A DNA stretch of 64,000 nt. Origin: a virus. The stretch covers positions 33,278 through 97,277 of the IMG/VR virus record IMGVR_UViG_3300034104_004920. One strand, 5' to 3'. Below the pieces are notes generated by a model. The model did not search any database. It worked only from the letters and a program-made list of their open reading frames with translations, and was not told the DNA's origin. This document shows, in pieces, positions 1,092-58,309 of this stretch. Position 1 is the stretch's first letter. Each line of letters starts with the position of its first letter. The position numbers and the translations under genes are program-made.

Positions 1092-1676
1092 ATGACAGCA
1101 CCGACCCGATTAAATTTAAAGATTTATCAGGGCAGTACCTTTAGGCAAATCTTACGTTGGGAAAGTGCTACAAAGGTATATGCGCCTGTAACCTCTATTA
1201 CCAACGCAGCACCAATGGTAATCACAGCCAATGCTCATGGAGCTCCTCAAGGCTGGAGAGTAAAAGTCAGCAATGTTGGTGGAATGAAAGAAGCCAATAA
1301 TTTAGACTACGTAATAGCCACTGGAACGACTACAAATACTGTTACTATAAATAGTGTAAACAGTATTGGTTTCGCTACTTATACTAGCGGAGGCGTATTG
1401 GAGTACAATCAGCCCGTTGATTTAAGTGGTGTAACAGCAAGAATGCAGATCAGACCAAAAGTAGACAGTGACCAAATATTAGACAGTTTGACAACAGAAA
1501 ATAATAAGATTGTTTTAGATAACGTTTTAAAAACTATTACAGTTCAAATAGATGAATCTGTAACTGCGTCGTACTCTTTTAAGAGTGCAGTCTATGATCT
1601 AGAAATAGTTAAGAATAACGATGTTATACCATTTTTAACAGGAACAGTCTTGCTTACTAAAGAGGTAACTAGATGA
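1092..1676 (+). CDS. virion/fibre N-terminal module protein
   Basis: 194 residues, preceded by a strong aggag RBS. The sequence is beta-rich: it opens with LNLKIYQGSTFRQILRW, contains a TTNTVTINSVNS segment and ends in VYDLEIVKNNDVIPFLTGTV. Short proteins of this style commonly lie directly upstream of collagen-like or receptor-binding fibres in phages, where they act as adaptors; here the stop overlaps the ATG of the collagen-like gene (ATGA). I do not recognise a named family with confidence. Confidence 0.6.
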   Translation: MTAPTRLNLKIYQGSTFRQILRWESATKVYAPVTSITNAAPMVITANAHGAPQGWRVKVSNVGGMKEANNLDYVIATGTTTNTVTINSVNSIGFATYTSGGVLEYNQPVDLSGVTARMQIRPKVDSDQILDSLTTENNKIVLDNVLKTITVQIDESVTASYSFKSAVYDLEIVKNNDVIPFLTGTVLLTKEVTR

Positions 1677-3277
1677 CTACGTACACTACTGTAGAAAATG
1701 AAAATGCTCCTAGCTTAGTAGTTGTCGACGATACCAGAGATATTATTGTTGTTACAACTGGTATTGGGCCTCGCGGAGAAACGGGCCCACAAGGTGAGGC
1801 CGGACCTCAAGGTATCCAAGGTATTCAGGGTGAAACAGGACCTCAAGGCGAGACCGGACCTCAAGGCGAGACCGGACCTCAAGGCGAGACCGGATCTCAA
1901 GGTATCCAAGGTCCTCAAGGTATTCAGGGTCCTCAAGGCGAGACCGGATCTCAAGGTATCCAAGGTCCTCAAGGTATCCAAGGTATTCAGGGTGAAACAG
2001 GACCTCAAGGTATCCAAGGTATCCAAGGTGAGACCGGTATGGGATTCACCATAGCCAAAACATATAGCAGTGTGGCATTACTTTTAGCAGACACTAGTCC
2101 TGCTAATATTTTAAGTGGGCAATTTGCTATTATTGATACAGGGGATCCAAACAATACAGATAATAATAGACTGTATTTATGGAACGGGTTATCGTACTCG
2201 TATATAACAGATATCAGTGGTTCTCAAGGTATTCAAGGCGAAACAGGTCCACAAGGTAGTCAAGGTATCCAGGGTATCCAAGGCGAAACAGGTCCACAAG
2301 GTATCCAAGGTATCCAAGGTATCCAAGGTATCCAAGGTGAGACCGGGCCTCAAGGTACGCAAGGTATCCAAGGCGAAACAGGTCCACAAGGTATTCAGGG
2401 CGAAACAGGTCCACAAGGTATTCAAGGCGAAACAGGTCCAATGCCTTGGAACCTGCCGGCTGCACCATACAACAATGGCATATCATATAATATTGGAGCT
2501 GCTGTAACATACAATGGGGGATATTATTATAGATCTGGTAATCCATTAAATCCAGGATATCCACCAACACCTGGTTCAATTAATGAATCTTGGACCCCTG
2601 TTGCCGATCGCGGTGAAACAGGACCTCAGGGTATTCAGGGCATTCAGGGAGAAACAGGTCCTCAAGGTATTCAGGGTCCTCAAGGTGAAACAGGACCTCA
2701 GGGTATTCAGGGCATTCAGGGAGAAACAGGTCCTCAAGGTATTCAGGGTCCTCAAGGCGAAACAGGGCCTCAGGGTCCTCAAGGTATTCAGGGTCCTCAA
2801 GGCGAAACAGGCGACATAGACCTTTTAGAAGTATACAGCGACATACTACCAGGAATAGCATCAATATACGATATAGGAAATCAAGATTTTCCGTGGTATA
2901 GTGCATATTTTCATGATAGTATAAATATTGGTACAAATAAGCTATATGACTTACCTGATGATGCTTTAGCCATATACAGCAGTTCTATAGTAACGAATGC
3001 CGACGTAATTGCAAATTCATTGCTTTTAGACGAGCTTTTTATAAATCAAAATATAATTACGCCATTAAAAACGCCACTATACGGCGAGCCTACTTTAATT
3101 ATACAAGGCAGCTTGGATGTGGTAGGAGATTGGTTAAAAATACCAAACAGCAGCAAAAAAATAGAACAACCGCAGAGCGGGCAGCTAAGAAGCAACACAC
3201 AAAGTTATTCGTATAAAAAAATGAGTACGGGTACTTTTTTTACTTTATCAAATTCAGAACAATACTATTTGCAATAA
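1673..3277 (+). CDS. collagen-like tail fibre protein
   Basis: 534 residues. Three Gly-X-Y blocks (residues about 32-122, 183-255 and 312-381), mostly GPQGIQGIQGETGPQ-type triplets, are separated by short globular segments; a non-repetitive C-terminal domain of about 150 residues follows. Collagen-like triplets form trimeric fibres in phage tails, and the C-terminal part would be the head or attachment domain. The near-identical repeats (1767-2812) make the gene prone to length change by recombination. It lies between the adaptor-like gene and another structural gene. Confident as a fibre; the receptor is unknown. Confidence 0.85.
   Translation: MTTYTTVENENAPSLVVVDDTRDIIVVTTGIGPRGETGPQGEAGPQGIQGIQGETGPQGETGPQGETGPQGETGSQGIQGPQGIQGPQGETGSQGIQGPQGIQGIQGETGPQGIQGIQGETGMGFTIAKTYSSVALLLADTSPANILSGQFAIIDTGDPNNTDNNRLYLWNGLSYSYITDISGSQGIQGETGPQGSQGIQGIQGETGPQGIQGIQGIQGIQGETGPQGTQGIQGETGPQGIQGETGPQGIQGETGPMPWNLPAAPYNNGISYNIGAAVTYNGGYYYRSGNPLNPGYPPTPGSINESWTPVADRGETGPQGIQGIQGETGPQGIQGPQGETGPQGIQGIQGETGPQGIQGPQGETGPQGPQGIQGPQGETGDIDLLEVYSDILPGIASIYDIGNQDFPWYSAYFHDSINIGTNKLYDLPDDALAIYSSSIVTNADVIANSLLLDELFINQNIITPLKTPLYGEPTLIIQGSLDVVGDWLKIPNSSKKIEQPQSGQLRSNTQSYSYKKMSTGTFFTLSNSEQYYLQ
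1767..2812 (+). repeat. three blocks of Gly-X-Y coding tandem repeats
   Basis: Near-identical 9- and 18-bp units (ggtatccaaggtattcag and variants) occur at about 1767-2037, 2220-2436 and 2605-2812 within the collagen-like gene. Unit count is likely to vary between strains. Confidence 0.9.
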
Positions 3278-7029: not shown

Positions 7030-7717
7030 AAATATTTTTCAAATACTTATATGCGACGAACCAGCCTCTAATGATTTCAAATATTCTTTAAAACAAAAAA
7101 TTACTGATGTTTATAGTAATTATAACTACAACCTCTACGATAATGAGGCTATAAGAAATTTTTTATATTCCTTCGACAAAGATATACTTAATGCATATGA
7201 TAATTTATTACCTTATGCATTTAAGGCTGACTTGGCCAGATATTGTTTACTTTATGAATTTGGTGGTTGGTATTTTGATATATCTGTTTTTCCAATTTTT
7301 AAATATACTACAAATAAAACAGGTCTTGTATTTTTTAACACATTTTTTAAGATATTAGAAAATAGTATCATGTATTTTCAATCAAAACATGTACTGCTGG
7401 AAAAAACAATACGTATTTCCGTTGAAAATATTAATAATAAAAACTATGGCACTAGTCCTATAGATATAACTGGTCCTCTAGTATTGACTTCAGCATTTAA
7501 TTCTTTAGGTGCTGCTTCAAAAAGAAGTATTGAATACGGGTTATTTAATCTAGCTGATAAAAATGACATTTCTTCTAATAGACGGTACGACATAAAGAAA
7601 AAAAGATTTTCTAACTATAAAGATTATAAAAATGTTAGTGATATATCGTACTTAGGACTATCTGGAACAAACAATTATGTAGATATGTGGAAAGAGAAGA
7701 GTGTATACAGACAATAA
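7022..7717 (+). CDS. GT32-like glycosyltransferase
   Basis: 231 residues. Contains AFKADLARYCLLYEFGGWYFD at about 61-81, the KADxxRxxxLxxxGGxYxD signature of GT32 enzymes, but the metal-binding DxD is reduced to FDIS. The N-terminus has the usual IFQILICDEPAS strand. It overlaps the preceding gene by 8 bp and the next by 17 bp. The altered DxD may mean weak or altered donor use. Acceptor unknown. Confidence 0.7.
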   Translation: MDKNIFQILICDEPASNDFKYSLKQKITDVYSNYNYNLYDNEAIRNFLYSFDKDILNAYDNLLPYAFKADLARYCLLYEFGGWYFDISVFPIFKYTTNKTGLVFFNTFFKILENSIMYFQSKHVLLEKTIRISVENINNKNYGTSPIDITGPLVLTSAFNSLGAASKRSIEYGLFNLADKNDISSNRRYDIKKKRFSNYKDYKNVSDISYLGLSGTNNYVDMWKEKSVYRQ

Positions 7718-8564
7718 AATAATACCATCAACCTTAAATCCTAGAGTAGAGGATGAAAAGTTTCAAAAAATACCAAAAATCATATATCAGACGTTTAAAT
7801 CAAATATAGTAAGTGATAAAATATATGAAGGTATTGAATCTTATATAAGTTTAAATCCTGATTATAGATACGAATTCTATGATGACGACAGGATGTGTAG
7901 TTATATAGATTCATATAATTGTAGTGATTTTAATTTTAATTTGGAAGAATTAAAAAAGGCATTTTACAACATAGTTCCACCTGCCGGCAAAGCGGATATT
8001 TGGCGATATTTAATCATATATGAGAATGGTGGCATATACACAGATATTGATAGTAAATGTATAAAACCATTTTCATCATACATTAATCCAGATGATGATA
8101 TAGTTACATGTTTAACAGGAATTGCTCATAATTACGACAATCCTACTGTAGTATGGAGACATTTATTTCCGCAATGGTTTTTGATTTATTCACCAAAATG
8201 TTCTATACTAAAGGAAATAATAGAAGAATGCGTAAAAGCAGTAAATACAAAAATTCCAGTGCCTAACTCAGAAGACTGCAAAAATATGTTGGAAAGATAC
8301 ACTGGTGTTTGTTTATCAAATTATGTGTACAGAAAGCTATTTAATTTTAAAGATAAAGATAAAGAGGCAAGATTGCAGCCAAGAGTATACAGCATAAAAC
8401 ATAGTAAAAACAAATATAATTTAGCTATACACGACAGTTTACCAGATATTTTTAACACAGCACTTATCAGTAAAAATTTCGAAAGATTCGAAGATTATAA
8501 AAAGGAATTATTAACAAATAATTCCAATCATTGGTTGAGCTATGATTCAATATTTAAAAGTTGA
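7701..8564 (+). CDS. GT32-family glycosyltransferase
   Basis: 287 residues from a GTG start. Classic order: IPKIIYQTFKS at about 26-36, PAGKADIWRYLIIYENGG at 94-111, then IYTDIDSKC with an intact DID. This is the capsular polysaccharide synthesis/GT32 pattern. Overlap with the previous gene implies translational coupling. Together with its two neighbours it forms a run of three related but non-identical glycosyltransferases. Confidence 0.8.
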   Translation: MYTDNKIIPSTLNPRVEDEKFQKIPKIIYQTFKSNIVSDKIYEGIESYISLNPDYRYEFYDDDRMCSYIDSYNCSDFNFNLEELKKAFYNIVPPAGKADIWRYLIIYENGGIYTDIDSKCIKPFSSYINPDDDIVTCLTGIAHNYDNPTVVWRHLFPQWFLIYSPKCSILKEIIEECVKAVNTKIPVPNSEDCKNMLERYTGVCLSNYVYRKLFNFKDKDKEARLQPRVYSIKHSKNKYNLAIHDSLPDIFNTALISKNFERFEDYKKELLTNNSNHWLSYDSIFKS

Positions 8565-8570
8565 CTTTTA

Positions 8571-9077
8571 ATGATTAATCTTGATAAAAAATATACGGAA
8601 TATATTTTAAATAAAACAGATATATTCCAATATATTCATCCAAATGCGGTATCAGTTTTAGGTTTATTTACTGATTTTTTTATTTTGTACTTTATAAGCT
8701 CACATAACATTGTACTAGCAGGCATAGCAATTTTTATAAGATATTCCTGCGATACATTGGATGGTGGCATAGCAAGAAAATATAAGAAGGTAAGCGATCT
8801 AGGTGGGGCCTTAGATACTATTGCAGATAATACGCTTATATTTGTATTATCTTATTCTATATTGAAATTATACGGCAGTAATTACTCGTTATTAGTATCA
8901 GGCATAATAGTGGCTGCAAACCTGCTGTATATGTACAGAAAAAAAGCTTTGTTACATCATGAGCATTTGCATGATTCACGTAGTCTATGTGCTAAGATTT
9001 ATACCTTTGGTATGAATAATACTTGTATACTGTATGCTTTTATATACTTATGGATAGTTGCACTGATATGCTTTTAA
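8571..9077 (+). CDS. CDP-alcohol phosphatidyltransferase family membrane enzyme
   Basis: 168 residues with several hydrophobic segments. Residues about 61-86 carry the complete family signature D-x2-D-G-x2-A-R-x8-G-x3-D-x3-D (DTLDGGIARKYKK, then GGALDTIAD). Enzymes of this family displace CMP from a CDP-alcohol and transfer the phospho-alcohol to a second alcohol, making phospholipids or polyol phosphodiesters in the membrane. The gene lies between glycosyltransferases and nucleotidyltransferase-like genes that could make its CDP-linked donor. The substrate cannot be read from sequence. Rare in phages. Confidence 0.85.
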   Translation: MINLDKKYTEYILNKTDIFQYIHPNAVSVLGLFTDFFILYFISSHNIVLAGIAIFIRYSCDTLDGGIARKYKKVSDLGGALDTIADNTLIFVLSYSILKLYGSNYSLLVSGIIVAANLLYMYRKKALLHHEHLHDSRSLCAKIYTFGMNNTCILYAFIYLWIVALICF

Positions 9078-9787
9078 ATAAAAAAATAATAATTTGTGCT
9101 GGAGGAGATGGAGGACCAAAGTGGAATAGACATTTAGGCATTTCAAAACACATGATTACAGCATATGGTGAAGCTCTAGTTCACAGAATCCAACGACAGT
9201 TATTAGAATCTGGATTCAACAATATATATGTAGCTTGCTCTTACGAATACAAAGACACCTATCTATTAAAACATATAAAATATATAGAATCGCCAAAATT
9301 ATCTGGTGACTTAGGCGACTACTCATGTGTTTGGCATTATAAAAAATTTTTAGATGTTTATTCTACAACTGTTATATTATTTGCAGATGTTTATTACACA
9401 GATGAATTTATAAACGTTCTAAAGCATGATTCAGGCAATCATTTTAAAATATATGGTAGAAGCGATGCTTCTCATATAACTAAAAATTGGAGGCAAGGAG
9501 AACCATTTGCCATAATTTTAAGTAGTAATGCTGTTAAAAAATACTTTAAATCTTTGAAAGAAGTAATGCTGGTTCTTCCAGATTTTATACAAAAAGGTAA
9601 AGCTATACGAGAAGATATAGGAAAATATACTTATAGAAAATTTGTTGGTATACCATATGAAGCGCCAGGTAATGTAACCGAAGACACACATTGGCACGAA
9701 TGGAACGATTTAACGGATGATTTTGATGATCCAAACGATTGGAAAATAAAATCTGAATTGTTTCCTAATATATTCTACATAAAATGA
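9068..9787 (+). CDS. nucleotidyltransferase-like (GT-A fold) protein
   Basis: 239 residues from ATG 9068, overlapping the previous stop; an upstream in-frame ATG at 9023 would overlap more and is less likely. The N-terminus, KKIIICAGGDGGPKWNRHLG, resembles the Gly-rich NTP-binding loop of sugar-1-phosphate nucleotidyltransferases, and ISKHMITAYGEALVHRIQRQL matches the helix after it. VILFADVYY at about 100 is a plausible metal-binding acidic turn. It might make a CDP- or NDP-linked precursor for the neighbouring transferases. Exact substrate unknown. Confidence 0.6.
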   Translation: MLLNKKIIICAGGDGGPKWNRHLGISKHMITAYGEALVHRIQRQLLESGFNNIYVACSYEYKDTYLLKHIKYIESPKLSGDLGDYSCVWHYKKFLDVYSTTVILFADVYYTDEFINVLKHDSGNHFKIYGRSDASHITKNWRQGEPFAIILSSNAVKKYFKSLKEVMLVLPDFIQKGKAIREDIGKYTYRKFVGIPYEAPGNVTEDTHWHEWNDLTDDFDDPNDWKIKSELFPNIFYIK

Positions 9788-10464
9788 CTCTTGGAAATGT
9801 ACTATTTTTAGGCAGATATAACTGTGAAGTCAGCAATAGTGCTATGCGCTATTTACAAAAACACTGTAATAAACTTGATGTAATATGGTCGAAGGATATG
9901 TCAGAGAGGTTGCCTGAATTTGTAAATAATTGGGAAGGCGATTACATTGTATCTTTTATGAGTTTTTTCATCTTGCCAAAGTCTTTGTTGAATAAAGCAA
10001 AAAAAGATGCTATAAATTTTCACCCAGGACCGCCAAAGTATCGTGGCAGAGGGGCGGCTTCTTTTGCTATATACAATGACGACAGTATATTTGGTGTTAC
10101 CGCGCATCTTATAGACGAATTAATAGACAATGGAAAGATAGTTGCTGTACTAGAGTTTTCCATAGAAGAAGGCGATACTGTTGAAACAATAGTTTACAAG
10201 AGTAGAGAGGCTTTGTATGAATTATTTACCCTAGTGATTGATAGTATATTATTAGATGGTAATTATATACAAAAATCAATTAATAGTTGTATATATCAGT
10301 GGAGTGGTAAACTTAGGTCTATTAAAGAAATAGATAGTTTACGAAAAATTAAACTAGATATTACAAAAAATGAATTGGATAAAATAATAAAAGCCACAGC
10401 TATAGGTACTACTGTACCATACATAGAACTATATGGACATAAGTTTGTATTTAGAGAGACGTGA
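9784..10464 (+). CDS. formyltransferase-family enzyme
   Basis: 226 residues. INFHPGPPKYRGRG at about 77-90 supplies the catalytic Asn-x-His of the methionyl-tRNA/GAR/sugar N-formyltransferase family, and IDNGKIV at about 115 the catalytic Asp; FGVTAHLID is the conserved strand between them. The family moves a formyl group from 10-formyl-THF to an amine. Context points to an amino-sugar rather than tRNA acceptor. The ATG overlaps the stop before it (ATGA). Confidence 0.8.
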   Translation: MTLGNVLFLGRYNCEVSNSAMRYLQKHCNKLDVIWSKDMSERLPEFVNNWEGDYIVSFMSFFILPKSLLNKAKKDAINFHPGPPKYRGRGAASFAIYNDDSIFGVTAHLIDELIDNGKIVAVLEFSIEEGDTVETIVYKSREALYELFTLVIDSILLDGNYIQKSINSCIYQWSGKLRSIKEIDSLRKIKLDITKNELDKIIKATAIGTTVPYIELYGHKFVFRET

Positions 10465-10467
10465 TAT

Positions 10468-11241
10468 ATGGTAAAAGATATCGTTATTGTAACTGGTGGA
10501 TTTGATCCAATACATTCAGGACATATTGCTTATATTCAGGATGCTTCTACCTACGGAAAAGTAGTTGTTGGTGTTAATAGCGACAATTGGCTTGTACGAA
10601 AAAAAGGTAAAGTATTTATGCCGTTTCAAGAGCGTGCAGCTGTAGTACAGAGTATGAGAAATGTTATGTCTGTTATTGACTTCGATGACTCAGACAATTC
10701 AGCCTGTGATGCTATTAACAAAGTACGAAAAATGTACCCACATAACAAAATATTATTTGTGAATGGTGGTGATCGCACAGCAGAAAATATTCCTGAAATG
10801 CGCGTTAATGATACCAATTTAGAATTTATATTTGGAGTTGGTGGTACAAACAAGTTGAATAGTAGCAGCTGGATACTTAAAGAATGGCAAAAGCCTTTAA
10901 AGTTTTCAAAGCCTTGGGGTTACTACACTGTTTTAGACGAAACTAATGCGCATGTAAAAGTAAAAAAATTACATGTTATTCCAAAAGCATCTCTTAGTAT
11001 GCAGAGACATTTTAAAAGAAATGAACTTTGGTTTGTAGCAAACGGAGTAGCGTCGCTAGAACTTTTAGACCAAGATAAAAATAAATATACTCTAACATAC
11101 AATAAGTATGACCGTATAGATATTCCTTTAAACAGTTGGCATAGACTGCATAATGAATCAGAGGATATATTAGAAGTAATAGAAGTACAATACGGCTTGG
11201 AATGTTCCGAGGAGGATATAGAACGAATCTATGCTTTATAA
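10468..11241 (+). CDS. cytidylyltransferase-cupin fusion
   Basis: 257 residues. The N-terminal half (1-130) starts VTGGFDPIHSGHIAYI with the HxGH motif of the glycerol-3-phosphate/heptose cytidylyltransferase family. The C-terminal half (about 145-257) is a mannose-6-phosphate isomerase type II-like cupin: KPWGYYTVLDETNAHVKVKK, then SMQRHFKRNELWFVANGVA. The fusion could activate and then modify or bind a sugar phosphate. It closes the surface cassette. Both domains are clear; the combination is unusual and the substrate unknown. Confidence 0.8.
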   Translation: MVKDIVIVTGGFDPIHSGHIAYIQDASTYGKVVVGVNSDNWLVRKKGKVFMPFQERAAVVQSMRNVMSVIDFDDSDNSACDAINKVRKMYPHNKILFVNGGDRTAENIPEMRVNDTNLEFIFGVGGTNKLNSSSWILKEWQKPLKFSKPWGYYTVLDETNAHVKVKKLHVIPKASLSMQRHFKRNELWFVANGVASLELLDQDKNKYTLTYNKYDRIDIPLNSWHRLHNESEDILEVIEVQYGLECSEEDIERIYAL

Positions 11242-39950: not shown

Positions 39951-40037
39951 GGCATTTTATTAGGGTAGCAAGTGGTACGATAACCGTCGCAAGTGCTTAC
40001 TCGACGTACATCACATGAGCTACCCTAATAAAATGCC
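39951..40037 (-). ncRNA. inverted-repeat-closed RNA element next to tmRNA
   Basis: Perfect 19-bp inverted repeat (39951-39969 with 40019-40037) enclosing 49 nt with inner stems GTACG/CGTAC and CGTCG/CGACG. Its 5' arm overlaps the 3' hairpin of the tmRNA gene. Confidence 0.6.
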
Positions 40038-40065
40038 ACGTGATTTGATAACAAGGACACGTGGC
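40035..40065 (-). terminator. tmRNA 3' hairpin/terminator
   Basis: 8-bp stem GCCACGTG (40058-40065 with 40035-40042) followed on the minus strand by ATTTTATT. Confidence 0.7.
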
Positions 40066-40089
40066 GAAAACCCTGGCTCAGCTAGTTTT

Positions 40090-40122
40090 TCAGGCTGCTA
40101 GAGCAAATACCTCATCGTTGGC
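40090..40122 (-). CDS. tmRNA tag peptide ANDEVFALAA
   Basis: Ten codons and TGA inside the tmRNA coding piece. The end -ALAA is the usual ClpXP/ClpAP degradation signal; the start ANDE matches known proteobacterial tags. Confidence 0.92.
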   Translation of the reverse strand, partial: ANDEVFALAA

Positions 40123-40376
40123 ATTTATTTTTGTTTTGCTGTTTCGGCCAGGAAACTCCCAACCCTACGGCTTTCGCATTGCCGAGCTGTCCATTTCGTT
40201 ACTCATTGCCCCGTCGAAACCAGGTCAGGCCCATCAAAAGCATACTAAGCGCACACGCAAACTCCTACAACTTCCGTCATCTAAGCTTGAGGCCTTAAGG
40301 TGTTAAGTATGCTTTTGGTGGACCTGGGCGGAATCGAACCGCCGTCCGGAACACTTTTCTCTCTACTTCATACAGC

Positions 40377-40411
40377 CATATTTAATTTTTCAGATATACT
40401 CTGAAAAATTA
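40377..40411 (-). terminator. hairpin between protein gene and tmRNA acceptor piece
   Basis: AATTTTTCAGA pairs with TCTGAAAAATT across the stop of the gene at 40390. It lacks a T-run, so it may be a processing stem rather than a terminator. Confidence 0.45.
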
Positions 40412-40662
40412 ATCTTCATGCGTTCTGGAACGAACTCACGATAGTTATTTACCACGTCATATTCTTGGTAAATCTTCATTAGAGCAGCTTGAAACTCCTC
40501 CAGTGCTTTGTTGTACGCTGCGGCAAACTGTGCTTGTTCATCAGCCTCCAGTTCGCTAACATCAATGCAGGCCATTTTGTCAGTTGGATTGTTGAGCACA
40601 AGAGCTTCACGGTTAGAAACCTTGTTATTACGATCCACATATTCAAAGTCAATGAACTTCAA
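40390..40662 (-). CDS. hypothetical protein upstream of tmRNA
   Basis: 90 residues from a TTG start with ggag eight bases upstream, downstream of a consensus promoter. Alpha/beta: FIDFEYVDRNNKVSNREALV then acidic helix ELEADEQAQFAAAYNKALEE. Probably on the same transcript as the tmRNA. Function unknown. Confidence 0.65.
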   Translation of the reverse strand: MKFIDFEYVDRNNKVSNREALVLNNPTDKMACIDVSELEADEQAQFAAAYNKALEEFQAALMKIYQEYDVVNNYREFVPERMKINFSEYI

Positions 40663-55336: not shown

Positions 55337-55674
55337 CTTATTTTTCTGTCGTCATTGGTATAAATATCCTTGTGTTGGATGTAATACAAAAGAAAGATTA
55401 GGTTACACACAGCGTGTGCTAAGTGGCTTTCGCCTGTTTCAGGATCCAGATCACGTCCTCGAGTCCACTCAAAGATGTGGCGCAGAGTGGCTGAAATTAC
55501 TCGTGTGTACTTAAAACCTGATCCCTCACTCCAGTTCCAGGCTGAGTACTTCTGACTACCGAAGTGTAACACTCGTACCACAGGCTCCAGGGCTTCCATT
55601 GGGATCAAACTCCAGTCCAGTTTGGAGCTGTCGTGTTTGACTGGAGATATTTGTTTTGTTAGGTTATCATTCAT
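55333..55674 (-). CDS. dATP/dGTP diphosphohydrolase-type domain protein
   Basis: 113 residues: KHDSSKLDWSLIPMEALEPV, FGSQKYSAWNW, SATLRHIFEWTRGRDLDPE, ETGESHLAHAVCNLIFLLYY. The H-x-x-x-W, D, E and H pattern on helices is that of the phage dATP/dGTP diphosphohydrolase N-terminal family (MazG-like all-alpha NTP pyrophosphatases). It would adjust dNTP pools. A structured leader precedes it. Confidence 0.7.
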   Translation of the reverse strand: MNDNLTKQISPVKHDSSKLDWSLIPMEALEPVVRVLHFGSQKYSAWNWSEGSGFKYTRVISATLRHIFEWTRGRDLDPETGESHLAHAVCNLIFLLYYIQHKDIYTNDDRKIR

Positions 55675-55684
55675 TTATAGTAAA

Positions 55685-55909
55685 AATTAGAGGGCCCGGT
55701 ACTTCCCCGGGCAAAAAGAACGGTACCTTTCTTTTAAGCACGATTACCCTGTGCTTCTAGTATAAAACGCAGATATAACACAATTTCTGCAAATAACTGC
55801 CGTGCGGGTTTTGTAGAGGTTTGTGTAGTATTTCTACGCTTGCGAACGGCTTAGGGACTATTTTTTTGCTTCTTGGCTACTCGCCTGTTAGAGGTAAATG
55901 CCAAAACCT
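55685..55909 (-). ncRNA. structured leader or small RNA
   Basis: About 225 nt without an ORF, ending just before the ATG at 55674. Stems: GCCCGG/CCGGGC (55694-55712) with a crossing GGTAC/GTACC pair, AGCAC/GTGCT, GCAGA/TCTGC, GTAGA/TCTAC inside GCCGT/ACGGC, and AGAGGT/ACCTCT. Could be a cis-regulatory RNA for the gene at 55333 or an independent RNA. Confidence 0.5.
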
Positions 55910-56092
55910 CTAGTGGTATTCTTTTTTGGGCTGCAGTAGTGCGGCCGTTTTGGGCTTTAAAACTTTAAACAACTCTAGTGTTAGTGCTGGAGGGTCCAGG
56001 TTCTTTTCTTGGAAGTAACGATTGTAGACTGGTAATAGTTCGTTTACAATGCATTCTTCTAAAATGACAACATAGGGTTCTTTAAAATTCAT
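55910..56092 (-). CDS. small hypothetical protein
   Basis: 60 residues from ATG 56092 (RBS ggaga), 15 bases after the predicted transcript start; the upstream ORF extension precedes the promoter's start site. ILEECIVNELLPVYNRYFQE, acidic then basic end. Unknown. Confidence 0.6.
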   Translation of the reverse strand: MNFKEPYVVILEECIVNELLPVYNRYFQEKNLDPPALTLELFKVLKPKTAALLQPKKEYH

Positions 56093-56114
56093 GTGGAGTC
56101 TCCAACAAAACAAC

Positions 56115-56143
56115 ATTATAACATAGGGATATTGTTGTTTCAA
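56115..56143 (-). promoter_or_regulatory. sigma70-type promoter
   Basis: Minus-strand TTGAAA (56143-56138), 17 bp, TATAAT (56120-56115), directly after the terminator of the large RNA. Confidence 0.8.
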
Positions 56144-56164
56144 ACGCAAATTTTAAAGTGGTAT

Positions 56165-56195
56165 AAAAACAAAAAGCCCACGAAAGTGGGCTTTG
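56165..56195 (-). terminator. intrinsic terminator of the large RNA
   Basis: Stem 56173-56181 with 56186-56194 on a four-base loop, then TTTTTGTTTTT on the minus strand. Confidence 0.9.
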
Positions 56196-57048
56196 TTGCT
56201 GGATTTCTTTCTCCAGCGAGAATCCTAGTAACAGCTAGGGTCCAGTTTAAGGTTTTTTGTTCTGATAGGTTAGACTTCCTAACAACACAGTTATCATCAC
56301 ACTGTATTGTGGTAGCAGTTTAAGCACTCTGCACAAACTCCAAGGAGTGTTCTGTTAAATCTCCCTGATATGCGCCTGTGGGATTATGCGGACCCACATT
56401 CCAGCATTATCTGTTGGTCTTAGTTAGAAGAAGGCGACTGTATTTCAAACGGTTCTTTCCGTACAGTGTTATAGCACACTGTTTCGCTCTGATGCAATAG
56501 AGACTATTGCTACTCCCAAGAAGAGGTACCGATGAAGCTGGTACGGACTAACAATACTAAAAATTGTTGCTGCTATCTTGACTAGTAGTCGTACCACTTC
56601 TTGAATGATCACGGCGTATTTTTGTGTGCCTACAAAAATACCTAGCCTGAATCAAACTCAGTGGGCTCTGAGGTTTCATCGTAACAGACAACGCCAACAG
56701 GCATTGCTGGTTTTAGTATTATTGGTTGTATTGTCTTGTTATGGACAACAATAACCCTATTGTCGTTTGCTTTTAACGATGTCTACTTATACAAGGGCAG
56801 TGGCCACTGCTGATCTTGCTTTCGTTACAGTGATAGTGACCAAGGACTTAACCCTGACCACTGGACATCAACTCGTGTAGGACGTTGATCACCGGAGCCT
56901 ACATTGATAGTGCATTAGCCTGGTGAACACAGGCTTTTTCCAAAACAATACAACTAATAATACTACTAGAGGGCTGTGGCTCGGAGTATACTTTTCCCAC
57001 AATTAAGACGTATGGCAGATTACCGCCACCGCTGTCGCCCCATATTAG
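56165..57048 (-). ncRNA. large highly structured RNA of about 880 nt (GOLLD/ROOL-like candidate)
   Basis: Bounded by its own promoter (57055-57083) and terminator (56165-56195), with no credible ORF. At least fifteen local hairpins are visible: GCTGGA/TCCAGC (56197), CCTAG/CTAGG (56224), ACTCC/GGAGT (56337), GTGGG/CCCAC (56378), ACAGTGT/ACACTGT (56463), CAATAG/CTATTG (56495), GTACC/GGTAC (56526), AACAAT/ATTGTT (56551), GTATTTTTGT/ACAAAAATAC (56616), CTCAG/CTGAG (56658), ATCAAC/GTTGAT (56868), AGCCTG/CAGGCT (56917). Size, density of structure and position beside phage tRNAs suit the giant ornate RNA classes. The exact class is not shown. Confidence 0.7.
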
Positions 57049-57054
57049 ACAACT

Positions 57055-57083
57055 ATTATAGTACTTTTAATAGTATCAAACAA
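57055..57083 (-). promoter_or_regulatory. sigma70-type promoter of the large RNA
   Basis: Minus-strand TTGTTT (57083-57078), 17 bp, TATAAT (57060-57055), preceded by AAATTTAGAC. Confidence 0.85.
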
Positions 57084-57098
57084 GTCTAAATTTTTATA

Positions 57099-57195
57099 CC
57101 ATAGTTCAACACACTAGCGGCGTGATAAGATCAGAGCCATCTCGTTTAAAGGTTGCTATTACTGAGCAAACCTCCACTAATGTGTTGAACTATGG
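57099..57195 (-). ncRNA. long-stem RNA element, copy 1
   Basis: 22-bp stem with G:U pairs (57099-57120 with 57174-57195) enclosing two hairpins with 7-nt loops (AGGTT-TGCT/AGCA-ACCT, AGAT/ATCT). Confidence 0.7.
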
Positions 57196-57266
57196 CGGCA
57201 GTGTTGCTGCCTCAGGAATCCCGGCCCTCAGTGCTAAGAGAACACCTACATGCCACCCTACTCTTA

Positions 57267-57336
57267 CCATAGTTCAACACACTTCCCAACCTAACCCGGG
57301 ATGCTGTTTGTACATTAGAAATGTGTTGAACTATGG
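57267..57336 (-). ncRNA. long-stem RNA element, copy 2
   Basis: Same outer stem sequence as copy 1 over 15 bp, extended to 19 bp (57267-57285 with 57318-57336); shorter, different interior containing CTAA/TTAG. Confidence 0.7.
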
Positions 57337-57530
57337 CAACGCCCCCTAAAGCGTAGCATAGTGTCTTGTACCAGGACGACGATCCCGCTGTATCTTAATA
57401 GAGGATAGTACTATTCTACAGCGGCATAGTACTATTTTTCGCCTTGTTGCACTGTACAATCTAGGGAATGATTGTACGTCGTGTGGCACCTCAGCTCGAG
57501 GGTTCATAAGAACCTCGGTGTTATGGTAGC

Positions 57531-57671
57531 AGGGTTCGAACCTGCAGTTGAATAGTCTGTCGCACTAGCTATTCTGGTCAGGTTTTGCCATGAGTGCGAG
57601 TCCTGCATCTTAATGCAGACGACTGTCCGTATAGGCTTTTCCTCGACCGTGTTCTCCGATTTTCACCATAC
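57531..57671 (-). ncRNA. tRNA-like RNA with T arm and long interior
   Basis: A perfect T arm GCAGG TTCGAAC CCTGC is followed by TACCATA, which pairs with TATGGTA 125 nt upstream, as an acceptor stem would. The interior (about 110 nt) holds TGCAT/ATGCA and GAATAG/CTATTC hairpins, not a normal cloverleaf. No CCA. Confidence 0.5.
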
Positions 57672-57857
57672 CATAGTTGTCCAGACCCGAGTGGAGACGT
57701 CTGAACCTTTCTATCTCATTCCACCATTAGACCCGTTAACTAGAGGTCAGCTAGATCCAAGATAAAGTGGAGTACTTGGACGTTTGTGTTGATCCACTAT
57801 CAGACCATTTGAACCTAGCGGTCGGCTAGGGTTTGAGTACAAGAGTTATGATTTTTA

Positions 57858-57966
57858 CCATATTTCAACACACTGCTGCGGCCGCAGACTACCGAGTACA
57901 TAACGCACGGAGGAGCAACCCTTGCCGATCTGCTGTACTGACTCGTCACAATGTGCTGAAATATAG
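57858..57966 (-). ncRNA. long-stem RNA element, copy 3
   Basis: Outer stem 57858-57874 with 57950-57966, in which one G:C pair of copies 1-2 is replaced by T:A and one A:U by G:U. Interior with TGC/GCA, GCAA/TTGC and CGAGT..GTACA/TGTACTCG stems. Confidence 0.7.
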
Positions 57967-57974
57967 CGACCCTT

Positions 57975-58072
57975 TGTAGGCAGGATTCGAACCTGCAAGT
58001 GGCTTCTACCACCACCGGCCCCAATGCGGGCCTATGTTTACCAGTTTCCATCACTACGGGTCCTCGGAGTCA
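57975..58072 (-). ncRNA. tRNA-like RNA, class II-like, non-canonical
   Basis: T arm GCAGG TTCGAAT CCTGC, variable-arm-like GTGG/CCAC, anticodon-like stem GGCC/GGCC, and an acceptor split as GACCC+GTAG against CTAC+AAA+GGGTC with a bulge. No CCA and no clear anticodon; may be a decayed tRNA-Leu or a mimic. Confidence 0.45.
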
Positions 58073-58109
58073 TGACTTCCGAGTATGGTTGAGGGTAGCT
58101 ACTCCTCTA

Positions 58110-58182
58110 CCATATTTCAACACACTGCTGAACAATCGTCAGTCTTCCTAAACAATCGTTAGGATCAATGTGCTGAAATATG
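58110..58182 (-). ncRNA. long-stem RNA element, copy 4
   Basis: Outer stem 58110-58126 with 58166-58182 (same T:A version as copy 3). Inside, two hairpins, TCCTAA/TTAGGA and CTGA/TCAG, carry the identical 7-nt loop CGATTGT. Confidence 0.75.
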
Positions 58183-58266
58183 CCCCCAACTCGTCAATTT
58201 AGGGTAGGGCTTCAACAGCTCATCAAGGAACAAATCCCACTGTTTACAAGCCGTTGCCATGATATT

Positions 58267-58295
58267 ATTATAATATGTTTAGAACATCATTTCAA
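58267..58295 (-). promoter_or_regulatory. sigma70-type promoter for the long-stem RNA cluster
   Basis: Minus-strand TTGAAA (58295-58290), 17 bp, TATAAT (58272-58267), between tRNA-Tyr and the RNA elements. Confidence 0.8.
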
Positions 58296-58309
58296 ATTCA
58301 ATTTTTTAC

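Follow-up and report, generated by a model that had tools for sequence, protein, structure and literature searches.

A large structured RNA gene in a phage tRNA island represents a modular and apparently undescribed RNA family

To our knowledge, giant structured RNAs of bacteria and phages fall into no more than a handful of classes, two of which proved to be RNA-only cages. GOLLD assembles as a 14-mer cage, and its expression rises at lysis. It is a giant RNA of phages and prophages, present in lake DNA, whose gene neighbours those of tRNAs; some copies have a tRNA embedded in them, and the RNA consists of a conserved and a variable part (PMC12286853). ROOL is another large ornate RNA of phages and prophages that lies near tRNA islands (PMC12286853). 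The locus described here occupies a comparable setting. The window (the whole 64,000-nt stretch of DNA that was analysed) is part of a 97-kb IMG/VR contig whose viral DNA polymerase shares ~49% identity with its counterparts in the T5 group. The RNA gene sits in an island that holds over 20 tRNA genes together with one for tmRNA, which confirms the phage tRNA-island context recognized in an earlier sequence-only reading. The tmRNA (39999-40425, minus strand) is permuted and of the betaproteobacterial type, and this type together with its predicted tag, ANDEVFALAA, indicates a betaproteobacterial host.

The same reading had proposed an ORF-free unit of ~880 nt between a consensus promoter with 17-bp spacing and a strong intrinsic terminator, and each of these features was recovered. 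The computational evidence shows one non-coding RNA gene of ~883 nt on the minus strand, with a promoter and a terminator of its own, and the longest stop-to-stop frame on the sense strand has 60 codons. Transcription probably starts at ~57048, ~7 nt past the -10 box. The gene comprises the following features.

57055-57083, minus strand: sigma-70-type promoter, with the -35 box TTGTTT at 57083-57078, a 17-nt spacer and the -10 box TATAAT at 57060-57055; its position and type are kept in relatives.
56166-57048, minus strand: the whole RNA, ~883 nt, defined by promoter, terminator, frames of at most 60 codons and a full-length 96% copy at locus L004.
56969-57043, minus strand: leader A, a three-way junction of GGGC/GCCC, GAC/GUC with a side hairpin, a UUAAU joint and a UGUGG/CCACA hairpin.
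56716-56961, minus strand: module B, a 245-nt unit closed by a 21-pair helix; 28 of 57 pairs are compensatory in a nine-sequence alignment (A4).
56797-56810, minus strand: palindromic hairpin GCAGUGGCCACUGC within module B, with a self-complementary GGCC loop, a candidate kissing-loop contact.
56449-56462, minus strand: core hairpin ACGG-AAAGAA-CCGU with a conserved AAAGAA loop; all four pairs show compensatory change among 20 sequences.
56423-56445, minus strand: core motif C, AAAUACAG...UCUUCUAAC; the pattern of AAAGAA hairpin plus motif C occurs in 35 viral contigs.
56378-56397, minus strand: core hairpin D, GUGGG...CCCAC; five pairs, 100% of cells paired, four pairs with compensatory change.
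56163-56194, minus strand: intrinsic terminator, a nine-pair stem at 56194-56173 followed by a T tract to ~56163.

The folding energy (MFE) of the RNA was 5.6 SD better than that of dinucleotide shuffles. Since the effect was equal on either strand, the strand was assigned from the promoter, the terminator and the homologues. One homologue, L004, is a near copy of the entire window RNA with 96% identity and 37 differences. Just 8 of the 37 fall in paired columns, though 546 of 946 columns (58%) are paired; folding the two copies together gives a consensus of 273 pairs, three of which are compensatory, with both sides changed. The copies also differ by 1-nt indels that would disrupt any reading frame. 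The sparing of paired columns, the compensatory pairs and the indels favour an RNA and disfavour coding. A protein-coding region or a decayed gene is scarcely conceivable, given these indels, the short frames and the compensatory changes, and we found nothing in its support. Covariation in the leader, module B and the core demonstrates the gene and its folded elements, so that the expectation of a structured RNA with covarying homologues, as opposed to coding conservation, was borne out. The feature almost certainly represents a real class of structured non-coding RNA.

The window RNA had been suggested to be a GOLLD- or ROOL-like giant RNA, or else a new class, and comparison with the Rfam models of GOLLD, ROOL, HEARO and OLE had been proposed as a check. 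That comparison was run and none of the four matched. A search of Rfam 15 at gathering thresholds gave zero matches in the window RNA, and cmscan of 55600-58300 against 4227 Rfam families, with E up to 5, returned a few sub-threshold chance matches only, with no match to the HEARO or OLE models. For GOLLD (RF02032, a 416-position model of the conserved part), the best hit in the 97-kb contig had an E value of 9.7 over 13 positions, with none at E≤0.01. The same search found GOLLD in three other records (G040, G041 and G046) at 190-226 bits, so the test was valid. GOLLD was also absent above threshold from the records that carry the leader, where a 68-nt stretch of G037 (E 0.008) fell far below the cut-off. 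ROOL (RF03087) had no match in the window by cmscan or in 46 related records, the latter search being one without a positive-control match.

Thus, the likeness to GOLLD and ROOL stands for size and setting, and membership in either family does not. At 883 nt, the window RNA exceeds ~800 nt and lies in a freshwater phage island of more than 20 tRNA genes, like GOLLD; ROOL shares the size and the tRNA-island niche. The internal tRNA is a further resemblance to GOLLD that is found in relatives (tRNA-Glu in 17 of 54) and not in the window member. In contrast to GOLLD, this class has the 5′ leader as its universally conserved part and includes members with a hammerhead core, and no sequence or structure match is detectable; moreover, GOLLD itself occurs in other phages that have module B alone. 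The absence of an Rfam match and the possession of a covarying leader and core of its own favour the alternative, a new class.

The class was assembled from the leader outward. When long non-coding gaps at syntenic loci were compared all-vs-all, two further loci (L005 and L006) proved similar to the window RNA in its 5′ part, including the promoter. A pattern, CTTAATTG...CCGAG...CAGCCC, was then scanned over 2.9 million viral contigs. It fixes few paired bases, leaving free the GGG strand, the 5′ side of P2 and most of P3. This gave 68 stretches and, among the matches listed, each distinct one has the unsearched GGG(C/T)G strand, correctly placed. A scan of the same contigs with the other, non-overlapping half of the leader, GGTGACAGCGG...CGTCTTAATTG, returned 48 stretches, all 48 of them already found by the first. 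One candidate, L153, was dropped as a chance pattern match that lacked the GGG strand in a coding-looking context. The pattern GGTGACAGCGG...CGTCTTAATTG had zero matches in 84,980 bacterial and archaeal genomes (GTDB), plain nucleotide similarity search of cultured-phage records gave merely chance or tRNA matches, and no description of the class was found in the open-access literature. The class appears to be an undescribed phage RNA family. Its members come mainly from T5-like freshwater phages; where related records bear a polymerase, it is 59-76% identical to that of the window, except in G002 (99%).

The leader folds as a three-way junction in 47 distinct sequences. P1 is GGGY/GCCC. P2, GAC/GUC in the window, switches as a block to GUC/GAC, GUA/UAC, GGAA/UUCC or GAAC/GUUC, and P3 switches from UGUGG/CCACA to UGACA/UGUCA, UGUUG/CAACA or UGUAG/CUACA. 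The UUAAU joint is invariant while the side hairpin varies in sequence, and the same invariance holds for CCGAG, the other non-palindromic joint. In an alignment of 55 model matches, 660 of 660 cells (100%) are standard pairs; this alignment was fitted to the structure, and direct parsing of the sequences was likewise free of mispairs. The 55 sequences hold 44 compensatory cells, compared with a mean of 4.5 after shuffling and 0-6 in slid registers. The window leader scores 77.7 bits (E 2e-17) against the leader model R1, the window being among the model's 47 training sequences. Across 46 related records the model detects the leader in 26, nearly always once per record, and one contig has a leader at both ends. 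Second, weaker copies of the three-way junction (25-30 bits) lie near the first in L275, L290, L295, L296 and L298, which suggests a repeated domain.

An exact TATAAT occurs within 60 nt upstream of 38 of 45 leaders, mostly with TTGA at 17-nt spacing. From this conserved promoter, the leader would start ~8-15 nt past the transcription start. Such a position recalls the put RNA of phage HK022, an antitermination RNA of two simple hairpins in early coding transcripts. By analogy, the leader could be a cis-acting element, folded within the first 100 nt, that modifies or protects RNA polymerase and so keeps Rho from truncating long transcripts of untranslated RNA and tRNAs, with the body as cargo; in a milder form, P1 would bury the 5′ end and shield the transcript from decay. 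The leader is indeed the sole part common to nearly all members, and the bodies that follow it are very different and include tRNA-Glu (L327). Position at the start of a phage transcript is, however, the only feature of put that fits: here a three-way junction heads a non-coding RNA, and transcription stops at a strong terminator of the ordinary kind. The core and module B covary on their own, which shows that selection acts on the body at the RNA level. Weaker leader-like copies within the RNA of some members, and a single leader per genome despite dozens of tRNA genes, also speak against a cis-acting role, which we regard as unlikely.

In the core, the AAAGAA-loop hairpin is followed by AAAUACAG..UCUUCUAAC and by hairpin D, an order kept in 20 members including the window. 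Eight of its nine pairs are compensatory, with 35 double-change cells in the 20 sequences compared with 9.2 after shuffling. A scan of viral contigs for the core alone gave 35 contigs, 17 of which are new loci. In eight of the 17 (L338, L341, L344, L345, L349 and L350-L352) the leader model scores above 20 bits, and in all of the eight except L349 the leader directly precedes the core in the same orientation. L006 failed the AAAGAA-loop test (AAAGAG), and motif C is present there nonetheless. The 3′ parts of members are strongly divergent, with at least two core types, and some members (e.g. L018 and L287) have a different 3′ domain after the leader. When the first four relatives were aligned globally, leader and core alone came out reliably, so we claim no full-length consensus structure. 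Class membership is thus given computationally by the three-way-junction leader directly after the start, and, for a large subgroup to which the window RNA belongs, by the AAAGAA-hairpin/AAAUACAG core. Between leader and core the body is modular, with module B in the window phage and tRNA-Glu and/or a hammerhead-ribozyme core in others. These compensatory changes, together with those in module B, are the outcome of the homologue collection and covariation check that had been proposed.

An initial loose pattern for module B was swamped by matches in coding sequence, and a tightened pattern was used. It revealed stand-alone copies between tRNA genes (L158, L160, L176, L179, L189, L205, L224/225/241 and L271), which often abut the CCA end of a tRNA. 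The nine aligned sequences contain 62 double-change cells compared with 20 after shuffling. Three carriers of module B (L160, L179 and L189) have genuine GOLLD RNA too. Phages with GOLLD include L160, L179, L189 (minus strand) and G046; in L179, a GOLLD region and a promoter-like sequence directly follow the stand-alone module B. Within module B, GUUAAAAGCAAACGAC at 56762-56777 is invariant and looks like the part of tmRNA around the resume codon, with GCAAACGAC encoding Ala-Asn-Asp as in tmRNA tags. Module B was for this reason considered as a tmRNA fragment; the idea was set aside, as there is neither a tag-like frame nor Rfam support.

A smaller element, module E, occurs twice beside the gene, at 57099-57196 (97 bp) and 57267-57336 (70 bp), with terminal inverted repeats of ~17 bp (CCATAGTTCAACACA...TGTGTTGAACTATGG). 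Similar elements of 70-135 bp are found in the tRNA islands of several phages, and a copy in L205 matches the window copy at 95/97 positions, so these elements seem to move between phages. This identity, the long terminal inverted repeats of modules B and E, and the recurrence of both between tRNA genes of different phages would fit palindromic mobile units of DNA, whose complementarity serves transposition or recombination. That reading accounts only for the mobility of modules. The leader has no terminal inverted repeats and, as a three-way junction, keeps a fixed place at the start of transcription, its invariant joints UUAAU and CCGAG are non-palindromic, and the core retains its AAAGAA loop. 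Inverted-repeat DNA elements are therefore a very improbable explanation of the locus.

The bodies of relatives contain two elements of recognizable type. Seventeen of 54 members have an embedded tRNA, a tRNA-Glu every time, which in L327 starts ~10 nt after the leader. A CUGANGA...CGAAA hammerhead core is present in the first 1.2 kb of 39 of the 54, often a few nt after the tRNA-Glu. In 19 of 54 the strict hammerhead fold, with helices I-III and a UH cleavage site, is complete, compared with 0 in 20 rounds of dinucleotide shuffles. The CUGANGA-helix II-GAAA arrangement and full fold resemble the type I hammerhead (RF00163/RF00008); it differs in that the predicted helix I of the relatives has just 3-4 pairs, and Rfam hammerhead models stay below threshold, the best at 22.9 bits (E 0.39) in L151. 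We strongly predict a ribozyme in these relatives. In L308, whose RNA has 683 nt, the hammerhead core lies ~165-265 nt past the leader start (2469), and it is also seen in L329, L273, L275, L277 and others. In L285 and L295 a promoter immediately precedes the hammerhead, so leader and core can be separate transcripts. The window RNA, L004, L005 and L006 contain neither a tRNA nor a hammerhead core.

The frequent placement of the hammerhead core just downstream of tRNA-Glu raises the idea of a carrier transcript, from which hammerhead and host RNases free the tRNA and leave the remainder as a by-product. This is improbable, because the window and most members lack a tRNA, yet their leader and core covary. 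The embedded tRNA-Glu has also to be weighed as a sign of a decoy or counter-defence RNA that mimics or shelters tRNA and so absorbs or evades anticodon nucleases and other RNA-targeting defences. An island of more than 20 tRNAs with a tmRNA would suit such a role, and phage tRNAs can overcome defence systems (PMC11555353). However, the window RNA has no tRNA, and neither Rfam nor ARAGORN detects tRNA mimicry in it; we consider a decoy distinctly unlikely.

The self-complementary loops point towards another role. GGCC stays in most copies of module B while the stem varies, and in relatives hairpins with a GGCC loop and differing stems (e.g. GUCUCGGCCGAGAC and GAUUCGGCCGAAUC) recur at ~150 nt from the 5′ end of the RNA. 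GGCC-centred palindromes number 16 in the class compared with 1.75 in mononucleotide shuffles, a count that includes related members and so is not one of independent events. In GOLLD and OLE, the assemblies are joined by symmetric kissing loops (PMC12286853), and this, with the recurrence of GGCC loops, is the reason for proposing a scaffold. By analogy with GOLLD and ROOL, a free-standing scaffold function is put forward as the most likely role, at slightly less than even odds.

In the proposed mechanism, the RNA would act as RNA and in trans. Produced abundantly in infected cells, it would fold compactly behind its leader, and copies might associate through their self-complementary GGCC hairpin loops and other contacts. 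The resulting RNA-only particle could hold or shelter products of the tRNA island, such as the tRNA-Glu of relatives, or other components of translation. The hammerhead of relatives would sever the core from the portion with leader and tRNA. Our best overall explanation, a non-coding RNA gene of a modular class with a scaffold role in trans, has a probability of about one half. It draws on covariation in three separate elements (leader, module B and core) and on the presence of mostly one leader per genome in phages with related DNA polymerases. Counting against it, the GGCC hairpin is found in differing domains (module B in the window, the body after the leader in relatives), many members have no obvious one, and there are at least two core types. 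More speculatively, giant RNA particles of phages might exist in a third kind with no relation to either GOLLD or ROOL. Its modular RNAs would self-assemble through symmetric GGCC loops and exchange modules such as module B between phages like cassettes, and relatives would carry their own tRNA-Glu and a hammerhead that separates tRNA and leader from the core.

The class is independent of GOLLD and ROOL yet fills their genomic niche; it is common among T5-like phages of fresh water and seems to be missing from Rfam and from phages in culture. This implies that phage tRNA islands repeatedly evolve giant RNAs. The hammerhead and tRNA-Glu embedded in relatives offer direct handles on the function of the RNA.

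Other sequences in the window were noted in passing. On the minus strand, two tRNA-like sequences score poorly: one at 57500-57660 has a T-arm-like stretch near 57525-57545, identified by eye, and one at 57972-58060 is called by ARAGORN with an unusable anticodon; both are possibly decayed tRNAs. Elsewhere, at 1673-3277 and 7701-11241, a gene for a collagen-like repeat protein adjoins a cassette of glycosyltransferase- and nucleotidyltransferase-like genes, as judged by eye.
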